A stretch of DNA of 64,000 nucleotides from Tubulanus polymorphus. Lineage: Eukaryota; Nemertea; Palaeonemertea; Tubulaniformes; Tubulanidae. Under the pieces are notes generated by a model, which saw only the letters and a list, made by a program, of their open reading frames with translations, made no database searches and was not told the origin of the DNA. Below are positions 62-29,391 of this stretch, piece by piece. The stretch is from contig NC_134028.1 of assembly GCF_964204645.1 (NCBI RefSeq), positions 5,616,501-5,680,500 of the forward strand, written 5' to 3'. The first letter of the stretch is position 1. Every line of letters begins with the position of its first letter. A program made the translations under genes and the position numbers.

Positions 62-1967
62 CTTGCAGGCATTTTTACTGCTATGTCCACCGGCGCATAT
101 TGTTCCACTGTCTATAGATCTAGGTCCGTAAACCGTAGTACAAGTTGATCGGCTAACTATCTTCACGTCAACGTGAAGAAGCCTCGAAGATGACGGAGCA
201 AATTCATCTGTAAATACAAATTATTCCATGGACGACTCTAACACCAAACTTCGTTTTCGAGTCCATGGTTGTGTATATGTATTAAGGAAAATCCTTACTG
301 TACGGGTAAGTTTGCCCGAATCCGCTGACGTAGCACACAGACCCTGAAATCGGATCAGGTGTATTTTCTGGTAAACACGCTGGTATTTTCGTCTGGTCGA
401 AAAATACTTTCTCCGCCAGTTTCATTATGGCTAAATCATTTCCTTCAAAATATTAGAAAAAAAACTATTGATTTTGGAACTTAAACATAAATCAATGAAA
501 CGATATTCAAAACTTAATGGTTTTCACCTCTGAATTTTCTGTATCCCGAATGTTTTTCTATGCTTCGGACGCGATATCTTTTCGCTGAAGTTATTCGTCT
601 AGTTTCACCGATCACAACCCGCCAATTATAGGGCGTCATCCCTCTGAAAGAAAAACAGTTTCATATTCCATGTTAAACGATATGTTCCTACAGATCAGTA
701 ATTCCTGGATATAAGGAGTTTTCAAGGAGAAAATTTCAAGGAGTTTTCACGATCCGGTAATTCGGTAACTGGTAACAGAAAGATCCAGGCCCACGTTTAA
801 GGTTTAACTTCAATTTGATATACGATAAAATGGAAAAATGTTTTACCCGGAGAACGCGACACAATGCGCCGCAGTGACTATAGTGTCCTCATTGACCAAT
901 GTTCCACCACACGTGTGGTCATCCCGGAATATCAAACTCACTTGCCAGGGCCACTGCCCTGTTTTTGACGCACTACCGGAGATGATTCTCCAGTCACCGC
1001 TGTTACTGATTCCGCATGATTGTAGTTTGGTGTCCGTGGTGTCCGGGTTTACGACAGGTCTTGTAACGCTCGGTTTCGCAGTCGTTCTAGGGACAAATGT
1101 GGTCGGGGGTTTCTCTTTCGCTTTGCAAGAAGAAAATATCGTACATTTATGGGATTCGCTCAATATTGACCGAAATTCTAGACATCAAAAGAAGGATGAT
1201 CAGGGGTCAGACTCGAGGTCGACAATTTTGGTTGAATTGCTAAATTGCTGAAAATGTATCGAATATTCGAATATCTAATCGTATGATCATAGGTCGATGA
1301 ATCGAAGATGAGATGAGCCATGGCTTGATAGTTTTCATACAAACCTTTTCCTTTGCAGCAGATCAAAGTGTAGTGGTCGCAATAGCCGTATACATGAGGA
1401 TAATAGTTCGGTTTACCATCTGATCGAGATGGACAATCCGCATACGGAACACATTTCAAACCCAATTTGTTGCAATAATTCAAACCTACATGAATAGGCT
1501 ACATCTTTAATGATTTGTACTACCAAAGTTAGTGACCTAATTGTTGGTGGTAAGCTTTCATAATTGGATAGGCTTTAAAATAAATATCCGATCCTGAAAC
1601 TTAACTACTGAAAGGTTACCGAATAGTCGAAAGTGTACTTACTCATCTCAGAAATTGTATATTCTTTATGGTTATCTGTTTTAAGCATATAGGGCCTACA
1701 GTGGAACCTTTTATAAAGAAAACTCTGATACGTACAACGATTCATCGGATATAACAAATATAGATCTTCGTCCCAAGTAAGAAAATTTAATTATTTTCAT
1801 ACTGGATATAACTATCGGTTATAATAACCGACATATTTAGGTCCTGTAAAGTTCGTTGTAACGAGGTTCCACTGTATCATTTTTGAGTTCATAAAAACAA
1901 AATAATGTTCGATACCTGCAGTTGGACCCACGAATAGGATACAAATCGTGATAAGGCGACCGATCAT
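62..1967 (-). CDS. Clip-domain trypsin-like serine protease (3' end outside window)
   Basis: Six coding exons read in phase on the minus strand: 1916-1967, 1345-1485, 847-1120, 528-643, 299-442 and 62-207, giving 291 visible residues. Residues 1-17 are a hydrophobic signal peptide. Residues 19-64 carry six cysteines (C22, C29, C35, C53, C60, C61) ending in CC, the clip-domain pattern. A Thr/Pro-rich linker follows, then a zymogen activation site DWR-IISG. The S1 peptidase domain shows TAAHC (His150), NDLAIMKL (Asp197) and SGTICAGG. The exon with the catalytic Ser lies before base 1. The last visible residues, SKNACK, place Asn where trypsins have Asp189, so trypsin-like specificity is doubtful. 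Clip proteases are secreted zymogens that act in proteolytic cascades, best known in arthropod immunity; that role here is inference. Start: the first ATG of the signal-peptide exon. Confidence 0.85.
691..755 (-). repeat. Fragment of dispersed 'TTATATCCAGGAATTAC' repeat
   Basis: Within intron 3 of the clip-domain protease. Reverse-complement match to parts of the longer copies at 52915-53290 and 58065-58425, including the motif CTCCTTATATCCAGGAATTA. A shorter, weaker match lies near 9552-9605. Confidence 0.6.
1699..1874. mobile_element. Tc1/mariner-pogo type MITE, 176 bp
   Basis: Inverted ends: CAGTGGAACC at the left and GGTTCCACTG at the right, both directly flanked by TA (1697-1698 and 1875-1876), the target duplication of Tc1/mariner elements. 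No coding capacity. It sits in intron 1 of the clip-domain protease. Related elements lie at 6787-6916, 41004-41159 and about 55083-55268. Confidence 0.75.
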
Positions 1968-2313
1968 TGTCACCGAATGCGGGATGACACGAGAACTGAA
2001 ACCTCAGCGCGTTAAGCGTACAACCAAAAACAGGTGTTTATGAGTTATCTAGCGGTGTATGACAGGAATTTAATGACTTCAATGATAACGACAACTAGAA
2101 TTAAAGCAAATACTGAAATTGTAACACGCCGATCGGTCCTCCCGATAAGGTCACAACTATTGAAAACAGGCGTATATACTCTCACATATACTTCATTTAA
2201 TGGTTCCGTTCAATCAATATGAACTTGGCGTAAATACAATCCTTTTTCTCCTCTTAGTTTTCCTCTTTGTTCTCCTCTTATTCAGACAAAACGACAAACA
2301 AATTGTTAAAATT

Positions 2314-4236
2314 TCATTTTTCAGTTTTTATTTTCTTTCGGCGGGATACAATATTTGCAGACGGACAAATGTTGACATTGAGACATTGCTGGCATTTGGG
2401 ATTGACGGGTAGACAAGTTTGTTGACCAAAACCAACTAACAGATGATTCACCTCTTCCCAGTATTCCCTGAAAAACACGAAAATTGGACGTTTAAAAACT
2501 GGAAATAACATCGGTTGATTGAACATCCAAGGGTGGCTCCAGACTGCTGATTCTTAAGGGAATTTGAATACATCGCGCTATTAAAAAGTTAGCATTAAGA
2601 TCTTCCCGTTGATATCACCTCAGGCTTTCAGAAAATTGTCTACGTAATTCAAGTTCATACGTTTGGAAGAAATAATCACTTATTCTGTCAAAATACTATT
2701 TATCCGTTTATAGTTTTTAAAAGTCATTAACGGATTTTTATCACATTTGATAAGCACAAATATCTGATTATTTTATCACTGCGAAATTCTGTGACAAGCA
2801 ATCATTGAATAACGGGCAGCAGAGAAAATACAATACGCAAAATGATTTGTCGACCATCATTTTATTCATCTAAAATTGGTGGCACTGAGTTCACTGCTCT
2901 ACAACACTTTATTAATAAAATTTATTCATAATAATTACAATTTCTTAAGTTATCAAGAAATGTTAAATAAAGTCCAACGTTACCTCGGTAACCAATCTTC
3001 GAGTGCTTTTTGCGTTTGTTCAGGCTGTTTTGTTTTAACCCAGCCGAGTCGGTTTGAGATTCGATGTACGTGAGTATCAACGCCTATTCCTGTTAATTGA
3101 CCCCAGGCTGACCTCATCACTAAATGTGCCATCTTAGGCCCGACACCTGAAAGTATAAATCTATGAATCACTGGCCAATCTCATCAATGAATAGTCCTGG
3201 TCGACATATCATAAATTGGTCAAAGAATATTTACCAGGAAGTTCACATAAAGTTTTCACAGTATCAGGAATATCACTGTTGTACTTGTCTTGAAGTATTT
3301 GCGTTGTTCGTTTGATGTACTGGACTTTTTTCTGCAAAAATAGGCATTTGTTATGATTATTAAACTAACTTCAGCAGCTGAGAAAAATTTTTCCTTTCAA
3401 ATCACAATCGATTTTGAACATGGTTCCGTTGCAATCAGTTGATTCAAATCAGTACTTCTAAGGATCTTTCTAAAAAATAGTGTACATGTATAACTTATAC
3501 GACAACGAGAAGTTTGACTTTCACGCAATAATTTCTTACATTCCAGAACCCGACAGGGTGGATCAGTCGACCAAGTTTATCATCCTTAGTTTTCAGTATA
3601 TTGGAAACGCTGCACCCGTGTTCGCGTAATCTGTACATCGCGGCTGCTGTCACTTGATCTTTAGTTTGACTCGATAACATCAGAGATAACAGAATCTGAT
3701 ATCTAAATTCCTACAAATAAACACATAACATCAATCGGAGTCTGAGGCGTTTGCCTTTTTGTGAAAATGTACCCAAATATTGGATAAGTCTAATACGGCA
3801 CCTGAGGTGAAGCCTCTCCGTCTCCTAGCTGATCACAACCCATCGAATCAACCGGTGCATCTTTGGCCTTGCGCATTTCTCTAATATTTACAAGCTGTTC
3901 ATGCCAAAATGTCGGCTCCCATTTGAGTTCCTTTTCGAATTGTTCTTCATCTATTTCTTGTTTAATTTCTATTACAGGTAGCTTATTGTCCGTTTCATAT
4001 TGAATGCTTGAATGCACCCTCTTAGTCTTAGATCCACTGTCTTCAGGATTTTCCTTTTTGACAGTAATCTTATTTTCTGGTTTGGCCGTGTCATCTGCCC
4101 GAGTTAAATTTTTCACTTTGCGGCCCAATTTTGAAGCTGGCGTTTCTGAGGAGGCATCAGGCGGTTTTTCAGTTTTGATAGACTGTACTTGAAGAATCTG
4201 AGAGGATCGCGTGACTCTTCTCCCTGATAAATGCAT
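2314..4236 (-). CDS. NTHL1: Endonuclease III homologue NTHL1 (bifunctional DNA glycosylase/AP lyase)
   Basis: Five exons in phase: 3802-4236, 3540-3710, 3235-3331, 2984-3146 and 2314-2467, giving 339 residues (human about 304-312). The enzyme removes oxidised pyrimidines from DNA and nicks the abasic site, in nucleus and mitochondria. Residues 1-110 are a basic, low-complexity N-terminal tail rich in Lys, Glu and Ser. The conserved core runs from [10 protein letters not shown] through [10 protein letters not shown], the helix-hairpin-helix GVGPKM with catalytic Lys239, and GVDTHVHR with Asp258. The 4Fe-4S loop is C307-x6-C314-x2-C317-x5-C323. I start at Met 4236. A Met at 4320 is also in frame, but a good acceptor (TTTTGTTTTGCAG) lies just upstream of 4236, so the first exon is probably partly 5' UTR. 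Divergent from PRPF31 over a 1.1 kb shared spacer. Confidence 0.94.
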
Positions 4237-11930: not shown

Positions 11931-13437
11931 ATGGATAAAACACTTATTCTAGTCGTCGCGTTGATGTGTTCCGTTGATCTATCGTCAGGTACGTGTCGTC
12001 CTGCTGCGCTCGTATTTCCATCGTGAGCACTTTTCTGTAGTTAGATACGAGAGCCCTTATACCCGCATCGTATCACAACGACATTGTCTGAACAAGGTAC
12101 AAAAGTCTATCTCTATCATCGAGAGGGTGTTAGGACGCATCCAAAAATATGCACCAAATCAACTACATATTTTCATAATAATTTAGCTCTTTTACGAAGG
12201 ATTACTATTTTGTACATTCAAAAAATCTAGATTTACATTTTTTTATGATTCAAAATATAACAAGTTTTGATTCTACAGGAAACTGGAAGATATTTGGCGG
12301 AATCCAAGTGCTTTCCGACCAAGCGTGGCCGCATCAAGTTAGTTTACAATACAATAACCGCCACGCATGTGGCGGAAGTATCTTAGATAGGAACACCATC
12401 CTTACTGCTGCTCACTGCTTCCAGAATACCGGGTACGATATATTGAAAAGATCCTCAGTCATTTATGAAATGCATTTTGACATAAAGAGAGTTTTTGATA
12501 TGTCTTTTGGTAAAGAGCTGATCCGTATTTATGGAGAGTGGTTGTCGGCACGATAAATCTTAGAGATCCTATGCGCCAGATCTTCGCCGTACAAGATATC
12601 CGTGTGCACGAACTTTATCAAAGCCCACAAAAAGGTAAAACAAACGCGGAAATGTCACTAGCTTGATTCGCAGCAATCGTAACAAACTATCAATGTTCAG
12701 AGTTTTGCTAGTGTATAAAAGCTTCAAGAACAATTTGTATAACAAATCATACTTAATCACAAACAGGTAATGATGTGGCGATTGTGAAGTTGTCGGAATT
12801 TCTACAGTTTTCACCGACGGTCACAGCAACACAACTACCTTCATCGAAATCCGACAACAGTGACGTCGGCACGACTTGCTACGTATCCGGCTGGGGCTAT
12901 ATCAATACACCCGGTCCGTCTGGTGAGAAACCGTTCATAAGAATATTAAAAAATATTAATATTAAGACTTCAAGTTGCAATCGCATTGCTACCATACGAT
13001 TCTATACTTATAGGAATTTTGTCGGACCAACTGACGTACACAGATCTGCAAATTTGCAACACAAATTGGTGCACTCAGTACTTCGCCGACGCGCAACCAC
13101 CGGTGGATGATTCAATTTTGTGTGTCTTTGGCTTGTATGGAAAGAACGCTTGCATCGTAAGTCTATAGCACAAAATAAATCAAATCAAATTATCATATCT
13201 TCCGAATGATAAACGTTAAGTGATAATGACAAGAGGGTAGACAGTTTTAAGTAGATAAAAATCGCTTTTTTTCAGGGAGACTCCGGCGGGGCGCTGATGT
13301 GCCCGAGAGCTGGCTACTACGTGGCGGAGGGGATCGTGTCCTGGGGTAGAATCGAATGCGGTTTGGATGTATCGGCACCTGTTGTTTACACAAGAGTTTC
13401 ACATTTTCTCGATTGGATAGAAGCGAATCGGCATTAA
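11931..13437 (+). CDS. Secreted chymotrypsin-family (S1) serine protease
   Basis: Six exons in phase: 11931-11988, 12279-12432, 12537-12634, 12767-12922, 13014-13156 and 13276-13437, giving 256 residues. A signal peptide (residues 1-19) is followed by almost no propeptide. The activation site WK-IFGG implies cleavage after Lys23. Catalytic triad: His65 in TAAHC, Asp106 in NDVAIVKL and Ser206 in GDSGGA. Two oddities are visible. The normally invariant Pro after GDSGG is Ala. The S1 pocket base (chymotrypsin 189) is Asn200 in GKNACI, with Val where residue 226 is usually Gly (SAPVVY). So neither trypsin nor standard chymotrypsin specificity is expected; an elastase-like pocket is possible. Exon 4 ends at a donor inside an open frame, and skipping 12923-13013 restores the family pattern [12 protein letters not shown]. 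Digestive or extracellular role inferred. Confidence 0.93.
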
Positions 13438-20900: not shown

Positions 20901-22342
20901 GCTATGGTTAATTTGCATAATAACAACGCCGGTAGACAGGTACGTTCTCGAATATGTAGGATTGATTATGTAGGCAGCACTCAAACTCTAACCGACGAGA
21001 CTAGTGAAAACAGGCTAACATTTAAGATAGCTTAAGACTTACAGCTCAGAAATCGGACTAGTTCTACGTCCGCCATCGGGTCTATAAATGAAATAGGCTC
21101 ATCTTAATACCAGTCATAAGTTGTTAGTTCGTGTGGTTCAAATGAGCTTAGATGAACATCATAGGCGCGGATCCAAGGCCATTCAGTGACTACAGCGTCA
21201 GCACAGTGAAAAAAGGGCACCAACTTTGAAAAGGGCCAGTATTAATGCCCAGCGAGTGAGTTTGAGTGCCATTTATTGGTATAATGCCACTGAATTTGCC
21301 TTCATATTCAATTTGCTTGTGCCTTTTTTAGATTTTTTGCGAAATTTGCCCTTTTTCGATTTAATCTATAGAGCAACAATAATGTCTCTTTTAGAATAGT
21401 GCCCTTTTGAGTAAAGGAAAATGACTTAACTTGTCTTGATTTGGGGCAATTAATTTTCATTCACATTTTGCTTTAGTCCTAGTACAGAAAGGCATTATGG
21501 GGCACAAATTGTGTGCCCTTTTATTTACTCTTTTCCCAAAACAAAAAATTTTCAAGGGTATATGAAAACTGCGACTACCGCATGTGCTGCATGTGCGATA
21601 GTCTGGATCCGCGCCTGCGACAAGGCCTACCAGATTTGGCCTATGAAAAGAGATTAATATTCAATTATAAAATTACATGTATGGAAGCCCCCGGTGCTCG
21701 AACCAATGCGACTATTATTCTTTCCAACTTTAATCCGTGTGGTTATGATTTTAGGCGGTGATTAAGAAGATGAAATTGACGTGTAAATGCCACGGTGTTT
21801 CTGGAAGCTGTACCACGAAGACCTGTATACGACAGCTTTCGGATTTTAGGACCGTCGGGGATTACTTAAAGCGAAAATATCGCCGGGCAAAACGCATCGA
21901 TCTGCAAGGCGGCGAATTGAACCAGGGAAACTTGGCGCGGCACATCGCTCATTCCGGAGTGAAAGATACCGACATGTTGTATTTGGAAGATTCTCCGGAT
22001 TACTGTATGGCGAACAATACCGCCGGCACATACGGTACGTTAGGCCGCGAATGCGTGCGCCCGAGCAAAAAGAAAGGTAAACGCAATCTGACGACCGCCG
22101 AGAAACGGTCGTGTAAAGTACTGTGTCGCGACTGCGGCCTGACCGTGAAAAAGAGCGTCGTGCCCGTCGAGTCGAAATGCAACTGTAAATTTCACTGGTG
22201 TTGCGAGGTCACGTGTAAAACGTGTCGCATGAAAGCTACGAAATACATCTGCACCGTGAAATCGAACGGCAAAACGAAGAAGCCGAAGAAATCGTCGAAA
22301 AGTAAAAAAAAGAACGCGAAAAAGGCTGCCGGTAAAACGTAA
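14948..22342 (+). CDS. Wnt8: Wnt8 family secreted signalling protein
   Basis: Six exons in phase: 14948-15018, 15420-15450, 19667-19823, 20528-20656, 20797-20939 and 21755-22342, giving 372 residues. Wnt ligands are lipid-modified, bind Frizzled/LRP and signal through beta-catenin; Wnt8 often acts in posterior and ectodermal patterning. Signal peptide 1-20. The second exon ([11 protein letters not shown]) and [28 protein letters not shown] and LEDSPDYC are Wnt8 signatures. [10 protein letters not shown] holds the acylated Ser193. The C-terminal cysteine domain contains [13 protein letters not shown], followed by an unusual Lys/Ser-rich tail of about 25 residues. Exon 3 begins with a stretch (residues 35-47) longer than in vertebrate Wnt8 that adds two cysteines, so its acceptor is the least certain junction. 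Intron 2 is 4.2 kb. AATAAA at 22782-22787. Confidence 0.93.
15451..19666 (+). other. Wnt8 intron 2 (4.2 kb)
   Basis: AT-rich, with short ORFs only. It has a small CG-dinucleotide cluster near 16770-16815, two 'CTGATGATGG'-type repeat fragments (near 18340 and 18548) and TATA/ATAT-rich tracts at about 18640-18680 and 18960-19020. No exon needed by the Wnt8 frame is missing. Enhancers may lie here, but nothing in the sequence proves it. Confidence 0.5.
20170..20330 (+). repeat. Interspersed repeat, copy A ('GGCAGGTGTGGTGGG')
   Basis: In Wnt8 intron 3. Shares CGCTCCCGGCAGGTGTGGTG and the preceding ATTTCCGATTT with copy B (25580-25760), and a shorter core with copy C (28895-28960). Confidence 0.7.
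21163..21616. mobile_element. hAT-like MITE in Wnt8 intron 5
   Basis: Inverted ends AGGCGCGGATCCA (left) and TGGATCCGCGCCT (right) enclose about 450 bp without a usable ORF. The termini resemble hAT transposon ends; no clear 8-bp target duplication was found. Confidence 0.55.
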
Positions 22343-24480
22343 TTGTCGTGCGCGCTAATGGACGAACTCAAATGAACCCAAAAAACGTGCGATGAAAAAA
22401 TACTTGTATTTTGCGAATTGGTGAATATTGTGGATCATGGATTTGTGTATAATAATCTAGTGTCTCAAAGTGGACACAACAATAACGATGTTATTATTTA
22501 TTGTATCTCTGCGTATCGGAATATTGTGTCGAATTGTTTCTTTAAGAAAAAAAAACGACTGTCAGACATGATACCGTATTTCTGCGATCACCGTGTATAT
22601 GTATATTCTGGCGATTTGGTACTGTAACTGCTAAAATCGATCCTATATATTTTGTTACTTCAATTCGGCGTTGATTTTGGACTGTTGTCGGAAACGTCAC
22701 GAGGATCGGTTTGACGAGGCACCGCCGCCGCCGCCGCCACCGCTGTCGCGAATGCTGTAGAATCTAAAACTTTTAACCTCGAATAAACTTGAAGAATAAT
22801 CTTGACTCGTGAGTTGTTTTGTATCTTCCAGATCGGGAATTAACATTCCGCAATAAATAATCTATACATAGTAACTCCGCTTTCAGCCTACAAAAACAAA
22901 TTGCCGAATTTTTTTCTCATTCCGCATGTCGGCAAGGGCGTATGTTTAGGTTACCATGGTAACGTATCCGTCGAAAAATGTCTGGCACAAACGTCGAATG
23001 AAAATGTGTAGGTTATCAATTAGAAAATGAAATTGCCAGATACGAAGTCACCGAACGGGATTTTTATTGGTGCTGAGCTGCGTGTTTTTTTTTTTTTCAA
23101 ATGTATCCGAGGAAAAAGGAATTTTCGTAATATCGTAAAATGACGCCAAAAATGACATCCTGCGGCCATATTTAGGTAAAAGATTAAATTTAAGAAAGGT
23201 TCAAGAATTTGCATGTTTACCTTATGAAACTTAACCTAAAATCAATATGGCATCTTGCCATTTAAACAGGCCGACAAAATGGTGATATACATGATCTTGT
23301 CTGAGGATACTATGGGAACTATTATGACGCATACGAAGCAACAAAAGTTTCAATAACGCCCCGATTTTAGCCCCCATTTGCCCAGGTGGGAGTTTCGAAT
23401 TGGAGGTATCTCAGAATCCGAATAAAAGAAAGATGAAAATGAAAAATAAAAACATATTCAATAATGTATTTTCGTATACCATTTATTTCTAGAATTTCAG
23501 TAACATTGAGCCGTTGTTGTCACGTCACTGTCTATATTGATGCCGATAGATTGATGTCTGACCTTTCGCAGAATAACCAATAAGTCATGAGTCAAATTGT
23601 GGTTTTGAATTTTCTTGAATCAGAGGGAATTCCCCAAGGCTTTTTATAGATGACGATAATTGCATGTGTAAAGGTCATGGTTTGATAAATTACCTTAATT
23701 ACGCCGTCAATGCGCATCTTTATTCCAGGTTACATCGTAAACAGACCTTGCTTTATAGCATAGCTGCGAGTACGGCGGGCTAATAATCTTAACGCGGGAA
23801 TGTTATCCAACAAATGAAGCAAAAATTAGCCACTTTTTAACGATTCGGTCGAGACGTTTGAACCTGAATATTTTTACGTGGGAAGGAATTCGATTCGCCC
23901 GAGGTAAACCAGTGCTGGTTGTGACGATTGAATTACAATTATATAGTTGTTTCCATGAATAAATAATGGACTTAATATTGCTCATATATACGTGGATTGT
24001 GATTTATTGACTCAGAGACAAACAACGTTTGAAGATAAATATAAATCAAGATCGACACAGGCGCAGACAGACGACAGTCGGCCTTCATTCAGCGGAAGCG
24101 ACACAACGCTACATAAAACGGCTATTGTCATTTGAGAACCTATATGCATTTCTCGCGTACCGCATCTGTGTCATATTATCTTGAGCAGACGACTTGGATG
24201 TAAAATACATCGTAGATGAGCTAACTGACTGACACACATTTTGGACCGAGAATTTTTACGCGCTTGTGTTTGCGGAAACAGTTTGGTTTACGAACGAGTA
24301 AACGCCTGACAAATATTTATTTCATAACCGTGAATTAAACATTGCGAACGGGTCGCGTTGTGTTTAAAAAGAGTTCGTGCGATAGTAATATTCTACGTGT
24401 ATATAAAAACCGGCTGACTTAGTGTGCGTGTAGTCAGTGGATGACAAGCCCCGGCGACAGTAAGGTCACAGATCTGAAAC
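22343..24480. other. Spacer between Wnt8 and the chorismate mutase-like gene
   Basis: The first 450 bases are Wnt8 3' UTR, with a (GCC)n microsatellite at about 22718-22742 and AATAAA at 22782-22787. The rest is AT-rich, with only short unsupported ORFs, and ends in the promoter of the next gene. Confidence 0.5.
24400..24438 (+). promoter_or_regulatory. TATA box and initiator of the chorismate mutase-like gene
   Basis: TATATAAAAA at 24400-24409 is followed about 34 bases later by TCAGT (24434-24438), an initiator-like motif, 43 bases before the ATG. The order and spacing fit a focused RNA polymerase II promoter. Confidence 0.55.
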
Positions 24481-26559
24481 ATGGTTACATCGGTTCTACT
24501 CGGTTTGATGCTGACTTGTTGTTTGTGGAATTTCGTTGATGCTGGTTGTCGGTAAGTTACTCCCATGGGCCCAGTTCCACAATCGAAACGAAGAAGATAC
24601 CACACTAGATCAAGACTCTTATGAATAATTTGTTGACTTTGTAGCAACGAGGGGCTTAGAATCCAATTCTATTTCTTCATGATAACTTGTTTTGGCGTCA
24701 GAGATTTGTTACATTTTTTCATGAATTCAATCGCTTTTCATATATGGACATCCTGGTTTCTAACCCGCACGCGAAAACCGGTGAAATTTTCGCCTTCCTC
24801 CCTGAAATGGCATTGAAATTTTGTACAATAGACACGAAACTACCCACATTTAAATAGAAATCCAACAGGATGTATAATTGCACAAAGAATCTACTATACC
24901 GGCTATTAAACGACCGAATCTATATATGTATTTGCACCTATATATTAAATATATCGGACTGCGCACATTATTGGATGTTTGTTGTACTGTGCGTCTCATA
25001 ATTTATGCCTTATCAAAACCTAATATTTGTTCATGATTTTATCTGCTACCATTTATATATCCGATAAGACCCAACAACATCCAATCCGTATACGTGTAAC
25101 ACAGTTTTTTCAATATTGCGACAGCAATTGGATCCCGTTTTTTTACAGTTATGAGTTAAGCTTCGAATTGATCAGTTCATTTTATATAATCAGAAACTTC
25201 AAATTTAAATTTCGTGGTCGAGTGAGGGTATGTAACAGTATCGCACACAATTAATGTTTTCAAGCTAGATGTATCTCATATATGTAATTGCATCGTATGG
25301 GGTGGATTGATATCTGATACGAAATTGATTTTATATTTGATGAATACAGATTAAGTAGCAAAACATTGACGATCACGTTATTATATCCAACGGCACGACA
25401 TCTGAATTTCATGGGACGCCACAGTGGTCATTTCACCGTAGACACAAGCGCAACCAAATCCACTGTCACGAGATGCTACACATTAGGTTATATATAATAA
25501 GGCGAACTCGTTACATAGACGTGTCTATCCTGTCGTGATCAAATTTGATAAGACATTCGAAAATCTATCAATCACCAAGTTCACTGTAAATTCGACAGCC
25601 GATCACACAACTATATCTGTAGGCGCTACTTCGATTTCCGATTTCAAAATCAAACCCCCCTGTTTCGCTCCCGGCAGGTGTGGTGGCTATGTAAGGGACA
25701 CCGAATCAAACCAAAACAAATCAAACTAAATCTATCTATCAAATAAGTAACAGGGTAATCCATATTTTAAGATTTCAAAATTAACATCCGACGTTTAAAG
25801 ATGGTTTGGCCATTGATTGACAATTGAGTGTTGCGGTCTCGTCTGTCCAAGGGATGTTGATGATTTATCCATACATTCCTAGAGGGAAACTATGCATATC
25901 TATCTTTCAATACTTTTTCCAGTTCTGACTGCGGTATCGACGACGCGAATCTAGATTGTTGGCGGGATAATATAGACTTCTATTCGAACGCGATTCTGCA
26001 GTCTGTCAACCAGCGAGGAATCGTAGCTAATCACATCGGAGAATGGAAAAGAAAGCGAAATATGGCCATATACGACCCGGTCAGAGCGGCGGCGGTTATT
26101 GAAAAAATAGCGGATAAAAACCCTGGACCTATGCCCGATAGCGCTATAAAAGTCATATTTACTGATATAGTCAACGAGGTACGTATTGCGCTGAAAACAA
26201 ACGTAATTATTTCTATTCAGATAAGCTTTTATTGAGTAGTGCTGACGTCAGCATTCATGACAGCATCGTGCGTAACGGTTCTAATCTTATCGTTTCAGAC
26301 GACAGTTTACGAGCAGAACTACCACGCCAAACCGCCCAAGTTCGTTTGTCCGGATAAAACATCGTGTGAATCGAATACGGCAGCTGCCGCGGTTGGAATG
26401 CAAGAATCTCAAAGACTTTTCAAAGTCGTCATTATTCTACAGAGTATTATTCTAATAGCCCAATTTCTAGCGTTAGGCATCATGGGTTATTATCTGTACA
26501 AAGAACGTCGCAACAGGCAACGAGCACCGGAAGATAGTGAACTGAGGCCGTACAAATAA
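24481..26559 (+). CDS. Membrane-anchored extracellular chorismate mutase-like (AroQ) protein
   Basis: Three exons in phase: 24481-24551, 25923-26178 and 26299-26559, giving 195 residues. Residues 1-21 are a signal peptide. Residues 30-120 match the all-helical AroQ chorismate mutase fold, with helix 1 WRDNIDFYSNAILQSVNQR, then GEWKRKR, YDPVR and NPGPMP. Against E. coli chorismate mutase, Arg11, Arg28, Lys39, Asp48 and Arg51 correspond to Arg38, Arg55, Lys66, Asp75 and Arg78. Ser84/Gln88 become Thr110/Glu114, as in yeast (Thr242/Glu246). Glu52 becomes Ala79. A Cys-containing stalk (C126, C132) precedes a transmembrane helix (about 152-176) and a short basic cytoplasmic tail. Six ectodomain-side cysteines suggest disulfides. 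The enzyme class converts chorismate to prephenate, a pathway animals lack, so substrate and activity are open. TATA box upstream, AATAAA at 26621-26626. Introns and GC match the neighbours, arguing against contamination. Confidence 0.87.
25580..25760 (+). repeat. Interspersed repeat, copy B ('GGCAGGTGTGGTGG')
   Basis: In intron 1 of the chorismate mutase-like gene. The best-matched partner of copy A at 20170-20330, sharing ACAACTATATCTGTA or its equivalent, the CGCTCCCGGCAGG core and a following ATCAAAxxAAAACAAATCAAAC stretch. Confidence 0.7.
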
Positions 26560-27128
26560 TGTCAAGGTCACATTTCGGCCGGCAATAATTGAAAAAGACA
26601 ACAAAACGGGAAACCTTTTGAATAAAATGCTACCTCTTTGTCTGCTAGAAATTTGATATGATATTTTCAACATTATTTTGGTTGTTATATAAATCAACAA
26701 ACGATATTCTAAGATATTTTCAATAATACCGTTAGAAAAAAATCTATAGAAATTTATGACAAAAGAAACGACTGTATGATAAGATTAACGGCAAATTTAT
26801 ATAGCATGTATTTTCACATTTACAAAATGTATGTAATTTCAATCTGTAATATTGAAACACAATGTAAATATTTATAGATATATACACATACAATAAGTGA
26901 TGTAAACATTTATTTGTTATGTAAAGCTTATATTCATATGTTGATGTTTCAATGGAAAACAAGCGATATTTTGTAAAAAATAAAACATTTAGATTCCATA
27001 ATATTCAATAATGAAGTTGACAGTCGATTTTGATTCAGGAAAGATGTGAAAATCATATGGAATGATCTTTGAAATCCCATTTCTCGTCGTTTTTCTGGAT
27101 TTCAACATTCCTCTTGTCTGCTGGCCAT
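26560..27128. other. Convergent 3' UTRs
   Basis: Tail-to-tail spacer with plus-strand AATAAA at 26621-26626 and 26979-26984 and a minus-strand AATAAA (TTTATT) at 26909-26914 for the next gene. AT-rich; nothing else seen. Confidence 0.6.
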
Positions 27129-28490
27129 TCACAGCTCGCCCCGTCGGCTATCCGCCACTTTACTGGTCAAGACAGCGTATTCAATAAATTGTTGCAGTGT
27201 GCGCAAATCAGCTTCCATGTAGCTATTCCGTTGCGCATCTTTTGCAATGATAGTACGAAATATCTCAGCCAGACCTCGAAATCTGACAACGAAGCTTGTG
27301 ACGTCACTCATATGCAGACTAATAACTACGGAATCGTCATTTTCCAGAACAAGGCCTCCGGCAAATAGGAAACCTTGCATCTTTGACTGCGATTTATTTT
27401 TAGAAGCCCTTTCGATGAATTTCGAGTTAACGTTTAATGGCGCGCTTGTATACACGATGTGAAAATAATCGGCTCGCATGATAACTAAATGAGCGGCATG
27501 GAGCACTTTCCCCGAGTTCAAGACGCGGGATCGAGCAACGCTGATGTAATACGGCCATCTGTACAATTCAAACGGTGTCGCTCCGCGCAGCAAGTCGGCG
27601 CTGTTTGAAAACGGATGTCTTTTTCGATCCGCTTGTTGGTGGACGAATTTGCAGACCAGTTCATCGCCGGCGACTTCGACCAGACAGGCGATCACTCGCG
27701 ATGGGTCAAACGTGTAAACAAAGTGTAACGTATCGTTAACTACGAACGGTGCCCAGTTCTTTTCTCGAAAGTTTAATCGTTCGTTTTGAATGATTACTTT
27801 TTGTATGGTGTTTTTTGCTAGATTCCATATGAACATATGCTCGCTGCTTTCGTAGTCTTCGCTCTGCAGCGGAAGGGACATGTATAACGTATCCCGAAGT
27901 ACGAACAGAGTCGGATTGATGGCTCGGCCGTATAGAATGTTCTTATAGCCTTTAACCTCGGGTGGAACTAGAATTCTCCCCTGGGAAACTGGTCGCAGGT
28001 TGGCATCGTATTTCTGCATGTACAGGAAGTTATCGCCGACATCTGCGTCGGGATATTTGCGCAGACGTATTTCATCTTCGGTCGGGTTGTTAACGCGAAT
28101 GCGCAAGACGACGACCAGCTCGCCTCGAAACCAAGTCATCGCCGGGCTGACAGCGCGGAGGCCAGACGTTTGGACTAGACCCCGCTGGAAGTGGGCTACG
28201 AATCCTTGTTGGATGTGCGATTCATCGAGGGCGTGAACGATTCCAATAGAAGCCGCAGCACCGAATATTTCCCCGCCCCTGTCGGAAAAATAACTCCCGA
28301 CGATAGTGAAATTTCTCATAGTTTCGATGTGTTTCTGCGTCAGACTAGCCCTGTTTATAAATTTCTCCATATCATTGTCCGCGTTATAGCTAAGAATTCC
28401 GGCAAGTTTGTAGCCGACGAATAAAACAAACGAAACGAATATGAGCAATTTCCCGATATTCAAAAACTGTCTTCTCTGTCGTTCCCTCAT
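27129..28490 (-). CDS. Type II membrane protein with GH130/GH43-like beta-propeller domain
   Basis: Single coding exon of 453 residues. I start at Met 28490 rather than the upstream Met at 28547, because a strong acceptor (GTTTTTCAG) lies six bases before it, implying a 5' UTR intron. A basic N-terminus (MRERQRRQ) and a hydrophobic segment at about 12-35 form a signal anchor, so the bulk would face the Golgi lumen or outside. The body has repeated beta-blade motifs: VSPAMTWFRGELVVVLRI, INPTLFVLRDTLYMSL, EKNWAPFVVNDTLHFVYTFD and GGLVLENDDSVVISLHMSDV. The KNWxPF...VYxxDP and GLxxxxDxxxISxxxxD patterns recall GH130/GH43-type glycoside-active five-bladed propellers. That assignment rests on remembered motifs; substrate and activity are unknown. 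A minus-strand AATAAA lies at 26909-26914. Confidence 0.7.
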   Translation of the reverse strand: MRERQRRQFLNIGKLLIFVSFVLFVGYKLAGILSYNADNDMEKFINRASLTQKHIETMRNFTIVGSYFSDRGGEIFGAAASIGIVHALDESHIQQGFVAHFQRGLVQTSGLRAVSPAMTWFRGELVVVLRIRVNNPTEDEIRLRKYPDADVGDNFLYMQKYDANLRPVSQGRILVPPEVKGYKNILYGRAINPTLFVLRDTLYMSLPLQSEDYESSEHMFIWNLAKNTIQKVIIQNERLNFREKNWAPFVVNDTLHFVYTFDPSRVIACLVEVAGDELVCKFVHQQADRKRHPFSNSADLLRGATPFELYRWPYYISVARSRVLNSGKVLHAAHLVIMRADYFHIVYTSAPLNVNSKFIERASKNKSQSKMQGFLFAGGLVLENDDSVVISLHMSDVTSFVVRFRGLAEIFRTIIAKDAQRNSYMEADLRTLQQFIEYAVLTSKVADSRRGEL

Positions 28491-29391
28491 AGTGAACTGA
28501 AAAACGCCAAGCACAGGAGAAATAACACACAAACAAATGACATTCATTTAATCTCTATAGAGATCTTCGATACGTATTTCATTTTCAAGGTTTTAACGTG
28601 TATCGAATAAAGGTCAATTCATAACCAAAAATTGAAATCACATAGTTACGTACTTTAAAAATGATCGTTAATTCCAAAGAGTTAAGTTAAGTGTATTCCA
28701 GAGTATTGTGTATTACCTTCTGTATTACGTTCGTTCGTCTGTCGTACAGTCCAGTACATTGAGGGCCAAACATGTCATAGCACCTTGCAGCAAAATCGCC
28801 CGAGCACGAACGTTACACACTACTTCATACAGTTGGTGGTCATACCTGCAATTATGTCTACAGTGATTTAACGACCGTGAAGTTGTCCAAAGGGTAACCG
28901 ATTTCTAAGCCCTCTGTTTCGTTCCCAGCAGGTGTGGTGGGTTTGTAACGGGCACTCCATCGTCATTTTGATGAACAAATTACATCTTCAACGTTATGGA
29001 AAAATTTCCCCTGGAAACTAGAGAATGATGATCTCTATTCGATTATTTTTTAAAGTTTGAACGTAGCGGAATAATGGATTGACATTATAAATTAAACAAA
29101 TGGATATTTGATTTGAGTTGAAATCAAACGGTGAACCAACCATATAGAAGCCTTTGAAACTAAAAAATCATTTTGGGCGATGTGTTAGGTCTGAGATATT
29201 GACCAGGCGGTCGACTGATAAGACGATCTATTACATCGCCATGATATGTGTAATTATTATCTGCATTGGTTGTTCAATGATTAACGCTTCATTATCCGTC
29301 AATATATACCCCTCTCATTGCTTCCACTTCACACAAACTTGTTTGTCTTCAGTTCCCGATTGATCGCAAGTCATCACTAGTCATCAACATC
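28491..29391. other. Divergent spacer with repeat copy C
   Basis: Contains the likely 5' UTR intron of the minus-strand membrane-protein gene, copy C of the interspersed repeat at 28895-28960, and the promoter of the ShKT gene: TATATA at 29303-29308, about 85 bases before its ATG. Confidence 0.5.
28895..28960 (+). repeat. Interspersed repeat, copy C (short)
   Basis: Shares AGCAGGTGTGGTGGGTTTGT and flanking bases with copies A and B; truncated and diverged. Confidence 0.6.

Follow-up and report, generated by a model that had tools for sequence, protein, structure and literature searches.

A resident pair of AroQ-type chorismate mutase domain genes with a predicted membrane anchor in the ribbon worm Tubulanus polymorphus

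Results

The gene LOC141903785 of the palaeonemertean ribbon worm Tubulanus polymorphus, whose product we refer to as P0001, lies on the plus strand at positions 24481-26559 of the DNA analysed here (the window, a stretch of 64,000 nucleotides covering positions 5,616,501-5,680,500 of a 27.4-Mb contig), some 5.64 Mb into that contig in a genome of 267.8 Mb and 77 contigs. Exon 1 (24481..24551, 71 nucleotides) carries the start codon and a signal-peptide-like segment, covers residues 1-23 and ends two bases into codon 24. It is followed by the phase 2 intron 1 (24552..25922, 1371 nucleotides, GTAAGT...TCCAG), by exon 2 (25923..26178, 256 nucleotides), which encodes residues 24-109 and thus most of an AroQ domain, and by the phase 0 intron 2 (26179..26298, 120 nucleotides, GTACGT...TTCAG). 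Exon 3 (26299..26559, 261 nucleotides) supplies the end of the third helix with Thr110 and Glu114, a stalk containing Cys126 and Cys132, a predicted membrane helix, a basic tail and the stop codon. Both introns are of the consensus GT-AG kind, and the coding sequence has a GC content of 0.447, compared with 0.368 for intron 1. The first-pass annotation of this DNA had proposed a 195-residue product from three exons and two introns, and the spliced frame indeed comprises 195 codons, with a translation identical over its full length (100%) to the NCBI and UniRef entries for LOC141903785. This identity, together with the identical exon layout of a paralog described below, supports the joining of the exons. 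NCBI names the product ‘uncharacterized protein’, and a PF01817 match is already precomputed on the database record.

P0001 carries an AroQ-class (chorismate mutase type II) domain. The AroQ fold is used by microbes and plants in making aromatic amino acids. The Pfam profile CM_2 (PF01817) matches residues 38-114 (25963..26313, split by intron 2) with 54.7 bits (cut-off 27), an E-value of 1.2e-14 and coverage of profile positions 2-79 of 80, while the domain as a whole spans approximately residues 33-116. An AlphaFold2 model, built with an alignment of 38 bacterial DAHP synthase–chorismate mutase sequences, superposes on bacterial chorismate mutases and displays the long-short-long arrangement of three helices, so that both the profile score and the fold place P0001 in the PF01817/AroQ family. 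Since profile score, sequence matches in the Protein Data Bank (PDB), predicted fold and PDB fold matches are concordant, we regard the domain as real. The profile search and the structure prediction had both been suggested by the first-pass annotation, and the motifs on which it drew (GEWKRKR, YDPVR and NPGPMP) are all found in the spliced product.

The remainder of P0001 resembles a small membrane protein. At its N-terminus is a hydrophobic signal-like segment (residues 1-22, with the core at residues 5-14), and this is followed by the mutase domain, the short stalk, a hydrophobic helix and the basic tail KERRNRQR. The best 19-residue hydrophobic stretch, residues 152-170 (26425..26481), has a mean Kyte-Doolittle hydropathy of 2.57, lies within helix 129-183 of the model and is predicted to be a single transmembrane helix. 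The simplest arrangement, and probably the correct one, would be a type I topology in which the mutase domain lies outside the cytosol.

A PF01817 search of the whole worm genome, which was positive in 13 of 14 control genomes, returned two loci, namely the P0001 gene and a second on a 31.9-Mb contig (C2, 6,611,118-6,611,339, minus strand, 64.9 bits). The flanks of the second locus contain introns at the positions and phases of both P0001 introns and only one candidate signal-peptide exon, and the joined model is identical to the NCBI product of LOC141900212, hereafter P0002, with the same layout as P0001. P0002 scores 67.3 bits with PF01817 over profile positions 1-79 of 80. Identity between the two proteins is 44% across 136 aligned columns comprising signal, domain and stalk (P0001 residues 1-134), and 53% across the domain alone; both have Cys23, Cys27, Cys36, Cys126 and Cys132 as well as a sequon at Asn108 (P0001 numbering). 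The shared introns indicate that duplication came later than the gain of introns and anchor.

The charged active-site residues of E. coli chorismate mutase are Arg28, Lys39, Asp48, Arg51, Glu52 and Gln88, with Arg11 contributed by the other chain (PMC5526877). Aligned to these seven positions, P0002 has Arg40, Arg57, Lys68, Asp77, Arg80, Glu81 and Glu116, six of them identical and the last replacing Gln88. P0001 retains five (Arg38, Arg55, Lys66, Asp75 and Arg78), again has Glu (Glu114) for Gln88, and has Ala79, encoded by GCG at 26086..26088, where E. coli has Glu52 and the paralog Glu81. Glu in place of Gln88 occurs naturally in the yeast enzyme ScCM and in a secreted mycobacterial enzyme (PMC7762937), and also in the Thermus domain in our own alignment. 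With this natural substitute allowed, P0002 possesses the complete set and P0001 does not, a statement about residues and not about activity.

The position at which the two copies part is an informative one. Glu52 is present in 81% of AroQ sequences and touches the 4-hydroxyl of chorismate, it is Val in the isochorismate-pyruvate lyase PchB, and when PchB was evolved back toward a mutase in the laboratory, Glu appeared in nine of ten second-cycle variants (PMC12329711). As judged from the alignment, the strongest functional clue is that P0001 and P0002 differ at a residue which helps to decide which hydroxylated substrate is read. The loss of Glu52 implies that P0001 may lack chorismate mutase activity, and we consider it unlikely to convert chorismate; the residues kept in P0002, on the other hand, suggest that it probably catalyses the chorismate mutase reaction.

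The relatives of the pair are less easily placed. Protein database searches that require shared five-letter words (139, 3 and 177 candidates scored) returned only T. polymorphus proteins, P0001 and, in the last search, also P0002; as obvious bacterial relatives were missed too, the result does not show that the family is absent from other animals. No relatives were confirmed on viral contigs, where one search yielded 375 pattern-matching stretches. A narrower, purely bacterial profile was represented by the best 80 of at least 396 confirmed loci (at least 587 stretches), whose titles name Bacillus and close relatives, and it therefore cannot alone place the worm proteins. With the P0002 domain as query, plasmid proteins gave 14 records, headed by an Acinetobacter PheA (37.6%, E-value 4e-7) and with Listeria and Anoxybacillus fusions of DAHP synthase and chorismate mutase ranked behind it. 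The leads as to class are thus in conflict, since the plasmid search points to the PheA type and the NCBIfam scores given below to CM_A, the DAHP synthase-fused type.

Two trees were built, each with 15 rows of approximately 85 residues; the first used six of the best 80 loci and five of the 14 plasmid records, the second eight and three. In both, P0001 and P0002 group as sisters at the end of a long stem (92/98 and 95/98). In the first tree the pair falls among DAHP synthase-type domains with support of 83/80, short of the program's mark of 95/80, whereas in the second, from which the Nostoc and Limosilactobacillus rows were omitted and to which two more Bacillus-type rows were added, it separates from the rest at the midpoint root. 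Long branches drew a warning from the program in both cases. We therefore claim neither donor nor direction.

Around the gene, TATA-type boxes lie at 24400..24408 on the plus strand (TATATAA at 24400 overlapping TATAAAA at 24402), approximately 80 bases upstream of the start codon, and AATAAA poly(A) signal candidates follow at 26621..26626 and 26979..26984 on the same strand; these agree with the signals reported in the first pass and are consensus matches only. An upstream ATG, 40 bases 5' of the main start and close downstream of the TATA-type box, opens an out-of-frame reading frame of 32 codons (24441-24539) that runs into the beginning of the main frame; it may have a regulatory role or be bypassed. 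Ten of the 23 reading frames listed in the window (an exon of P0001 among the 23) were compared with Pfam: six exceeded the cut-off (three trypsin pieces, wnt, a GTP_EFTU GTPase at 26.6 bits against 26.5, and Storkhead), one narrowly missed it and the remaining three matched no family. The trypsin-family exons occupy two places on opposite strands (843-1181, minus; 12182-13107, plus), and the C-terminal exon of the Wnt gene (21755-22339, 146.4 bits) lies upstream of the P0001 gene on the same strand. Convergent with the P0001 gene is a single-exon frame of 472 residues (27129-28547, minus strand) with an N-terminal hydrophobic segment and a weak match to the beta-mannosyltransferase family BMT (PF12141; 26.8 bits, below the cut-off of 28.3), a family known mainly from fungi; its residues 20-472 matched nothing in NCBIfam (at E 0.01) or among PDB sequences (at E 0.1). 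Beside the paralog on C2 lies a single reading frame of 665 residues (positions 1374-3371 of the extracted locus L003, plus strand) whose match to the collagen repeat is weak (21.2 bits; cut-off 27.2). The wnt, trypsin and Storkhead neighbours, the large contig and the same-intron paralog on another contig all bear out the earlier view of a resident gene among animal genes.

Discussion

The present analysis confirms what the first-pass annotation observed at this locus and supports its interpretation. It adds three points: a predicted membrane anchor, a paralog that shares both introns, and a difference between the copies in the active-site residues they retain. As a whole, we tentatively read the two genes as a resident, membrane-anchored AroQ pair that acts on or senses external chorismate, a reading that falls a little short of being the probable one.

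We envisage the following arrangement. Each protein would be of type I, held by one transmembrane helix with its AroQ domain facing the cell exterior or a secretory, lysosomal or gut lumen, and the two genes would descend by duplication from a single ancestor in which the anchor and both introns were already present. P0002 appears from its sequence to have the residues needed to convert chorismate to prephenate. P0001, which keeps the binding arginines and lysine and has Ala for Glu52, would most likely be a partner of altered specificity or weak activity. Because the active sites of AroQ proteins span the two chains of a dimer, P0001 could also pair with P0002. The substrate would come from microbes, algae or food, and the pair might dispose of chorismate or read it as a sign of microbes. 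By analogy with other exported mutases, that microbial or dietary chorismate is the purpose of the system can be put forward as possible, with slightly more room for doubt than for confidence. It is more doubtful whether the two genes represent a new animal family in which an outward-facing AroQ domain binds or converts chorismate and so detects or scavenges a metabolite that only microbes, algae and plants produce, with an active P0002 and an altered P0001, possibly in one dimer.

To our knowledge, the shikimate pathway is absent from animals generally. An exon-by-exon search of the worm genome gave no match to chorismate synthase (PF01264) or prephenate dehydratase (PF00800), for each of which 14 of 14 prokaryotic controls were positive. 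If the pathway is indeed absent, chorismate would have to come from outside the worm. There is a bacterial parallel: for exported bacterial mutase-dehydratase fusions, a role in sensing chorismate set free by lysed bacteria has been proposed (PMC10520331).

Several points weigh against this reading. The absence of two families does not prove the absence of the pathway, as an exon-by-exon search with no animal control may miss a finely split gene, and that a ribbon worm has access to extracellular chorismate is assumed. The signal peptide and membrane helix are predictions from hydropathy alone. The AlphaFold2 fold leaned on the 38 bacterial sequences, and the alignment-free model was poor, with a mean predicted local distance difference test score (pLDDT) of 52.8. 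Ser84 is replaced by Thr in both P0001 and P0002. Finally, kept residues do not prove catalysis, because chorismate mutase domains of the nearest type in B. subtilis and Listeria have been described as less active or regulatory (PMC5526877).

The strongest alternative, although we think it rather unlikely, is that the AroQ fold was reused as a ligand-binding ectodomain. The proteins would then be catalytically inactive receptors or binders of chorismate-like or other aromatic carboxylates whose short tail signals, and neither copy need be an enzyme. The exchange of Glu52 for Ala in P0001 while the pocket arginines and lysine are kept would suit such a protein, as would its single membrane helix with a basic tail and the signalling role proposed for exported bacterial chorismate mutase fusions, to which free chorismate would be a sign of lysed bacteria (PMC10520331). 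P0002, however, keeps Glu52 and, at the other key positions, either the E. coli residue or a known natural substitute, for which retained catalysis is the easier explanation.

It seems improbable that P0001 is simply a decaying duplicate that is losing function while P0002 does the work. The lost Glu52 is in keeping with decay, as are a PF01817 score below that of the paralog (54.7 against 67.3 bits), an unusual letter make-up and a long end branch in the second tree, yet the 195-codon frame and the splice sites of P0001 are intact, and alongside the 44% identity over 136 columns the other six of the seven key positions are as in P0002. Highly improbable, in our view, is a changed reaction in which P0001 acts on isochorismate or another chorismate relative, as does PchB with its Val for Glu52, since its score against the lyase model TIGR01803 lies far under the cut-off of 73.35 bits, its Asp at position 48 and Thr at position 84 contrast with Ala and Tyr in PchB, and its Ala differs from the residues (Val, Phe or Tyr) that six annotated lyases have there (PMC12329711). 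A bacterial contaminant or a chance helical bundle resembling AroQ, for which no support was found, is a negligible prospect and was rejected, given two spliceosomal introns, a position 5.64 Mb inside a 27.4-Mb contig, a same-intron paralog on a 31.9-Mb contig, animal neighbours and, as regards chance, the Pfam E-value of 1.2e-14.

The AroQ domain of the pair obtains its scores with prokaryotic models and lies at some distance from the gamma type discussed below. As to the history of the resident pair, we prefer one ancient transfer from bacteria, after which signal, anchor and introns were added and the gene was duplicated, and consider this likely. The genes may alternatively belong to an ancient family of eukaryotes or animals that most lineages have lost.

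In mostly open literature, no paper was found on chorismate mutase in nemertea, no report of the enzyme in animals other than nematodes appeared in the titles and abstract openings among the matches listed, and the genome papers naming T. polymorphus included none on this gene as judged by title. Chorismate mutases have been called rare in animals (PMC4828791), and exported ones have been described from bacteria, some fungi and nematodes (PMC10520331). The ribbon worm's pair, with its predicted membrane anchor, corresponds neither to an effector of plant parasites nor to a pathway of biosynthesis. Should P0002 be active, an animal would have kept an enzyme of a shikimate branch without the pathway, for the metabolites of other organisms, and as the pair differs at the hydroxyl-reading residue, divergence of function after duplication is directly testable.

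PchB resembles P0001 in its AroQ fold and in the non-acidic residue that replaces Glu52, but the lyases have Val, Phe or Tyr where P0001 has Ala79, positions 48 and 84 differ, and P0001 reaches only 23.6 bits with TIGR01803. Relative to the PheA-type mutase domain of E. coli (1ecm), Gln88 is Glu in both worm proteins, Glu52 is Ala in P0001, and there is no prephenate dehydratase domain; the CM_P2 scores are 46.8 bits for P0001 and 49.2 bits for P0002, below the cut-off of 69.55.

The exported AroQ-gamma mutases of bacteria, fungi and nematodes combine an AroQ fold with an N-terminal export signal and are placed away from the compartment that houses the shikimate pathway (PMC10520331), as is predicted for the worm proteins. 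The gamma enzyme treated in that paper has six helices per chain, whereas the worm proteins have the short form with three helices, carried on a predicted membrane anchor, and score 17.9 (P0001) and 40.2 bits (P0002) with TIGR01806, against a cut-off of 74.15. Exported mutases, those of nematodes included, have been assigned to this gamma type (PMC10520331), and the chorismate mutases of Hoplolaimina cluster with those of Burkholderia with a bootstrap of 77 (PMC4828791). An effector of the plant-parasitic nematode kind was dropped as the default reading on account of the low gamma-type score and the ribbon worm host.

Perhaps the closest resemblance is to the AroQ domains fused to DAHP synthase (TIGR01801, CM_A), which include B. 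subtilis AroA(G) and the Thermus (2d8d) and Geobacillus (5j6f) structures. These are the best PDB matches, with the same three-helix fold, the (Y/F)DPxR and NxGP motifs in common and 24-32% identity to the worm proteins over four PDB domains. TIGR01801 is the top NCBIfam model for P0001 (58.8 bits), and for P0002 (56.0 bits) it comes just behind the full-length fusion model (56.8 bits); both scores lie roughly 50 bits short of the equivalog cut-off of 106.35, and thus outside equivalog membership. In place of the DAHP synthase, the worm proteins carry a signal-like segment, a stalk and a membrane anchor, and P0001 has in addition lost Glu52.
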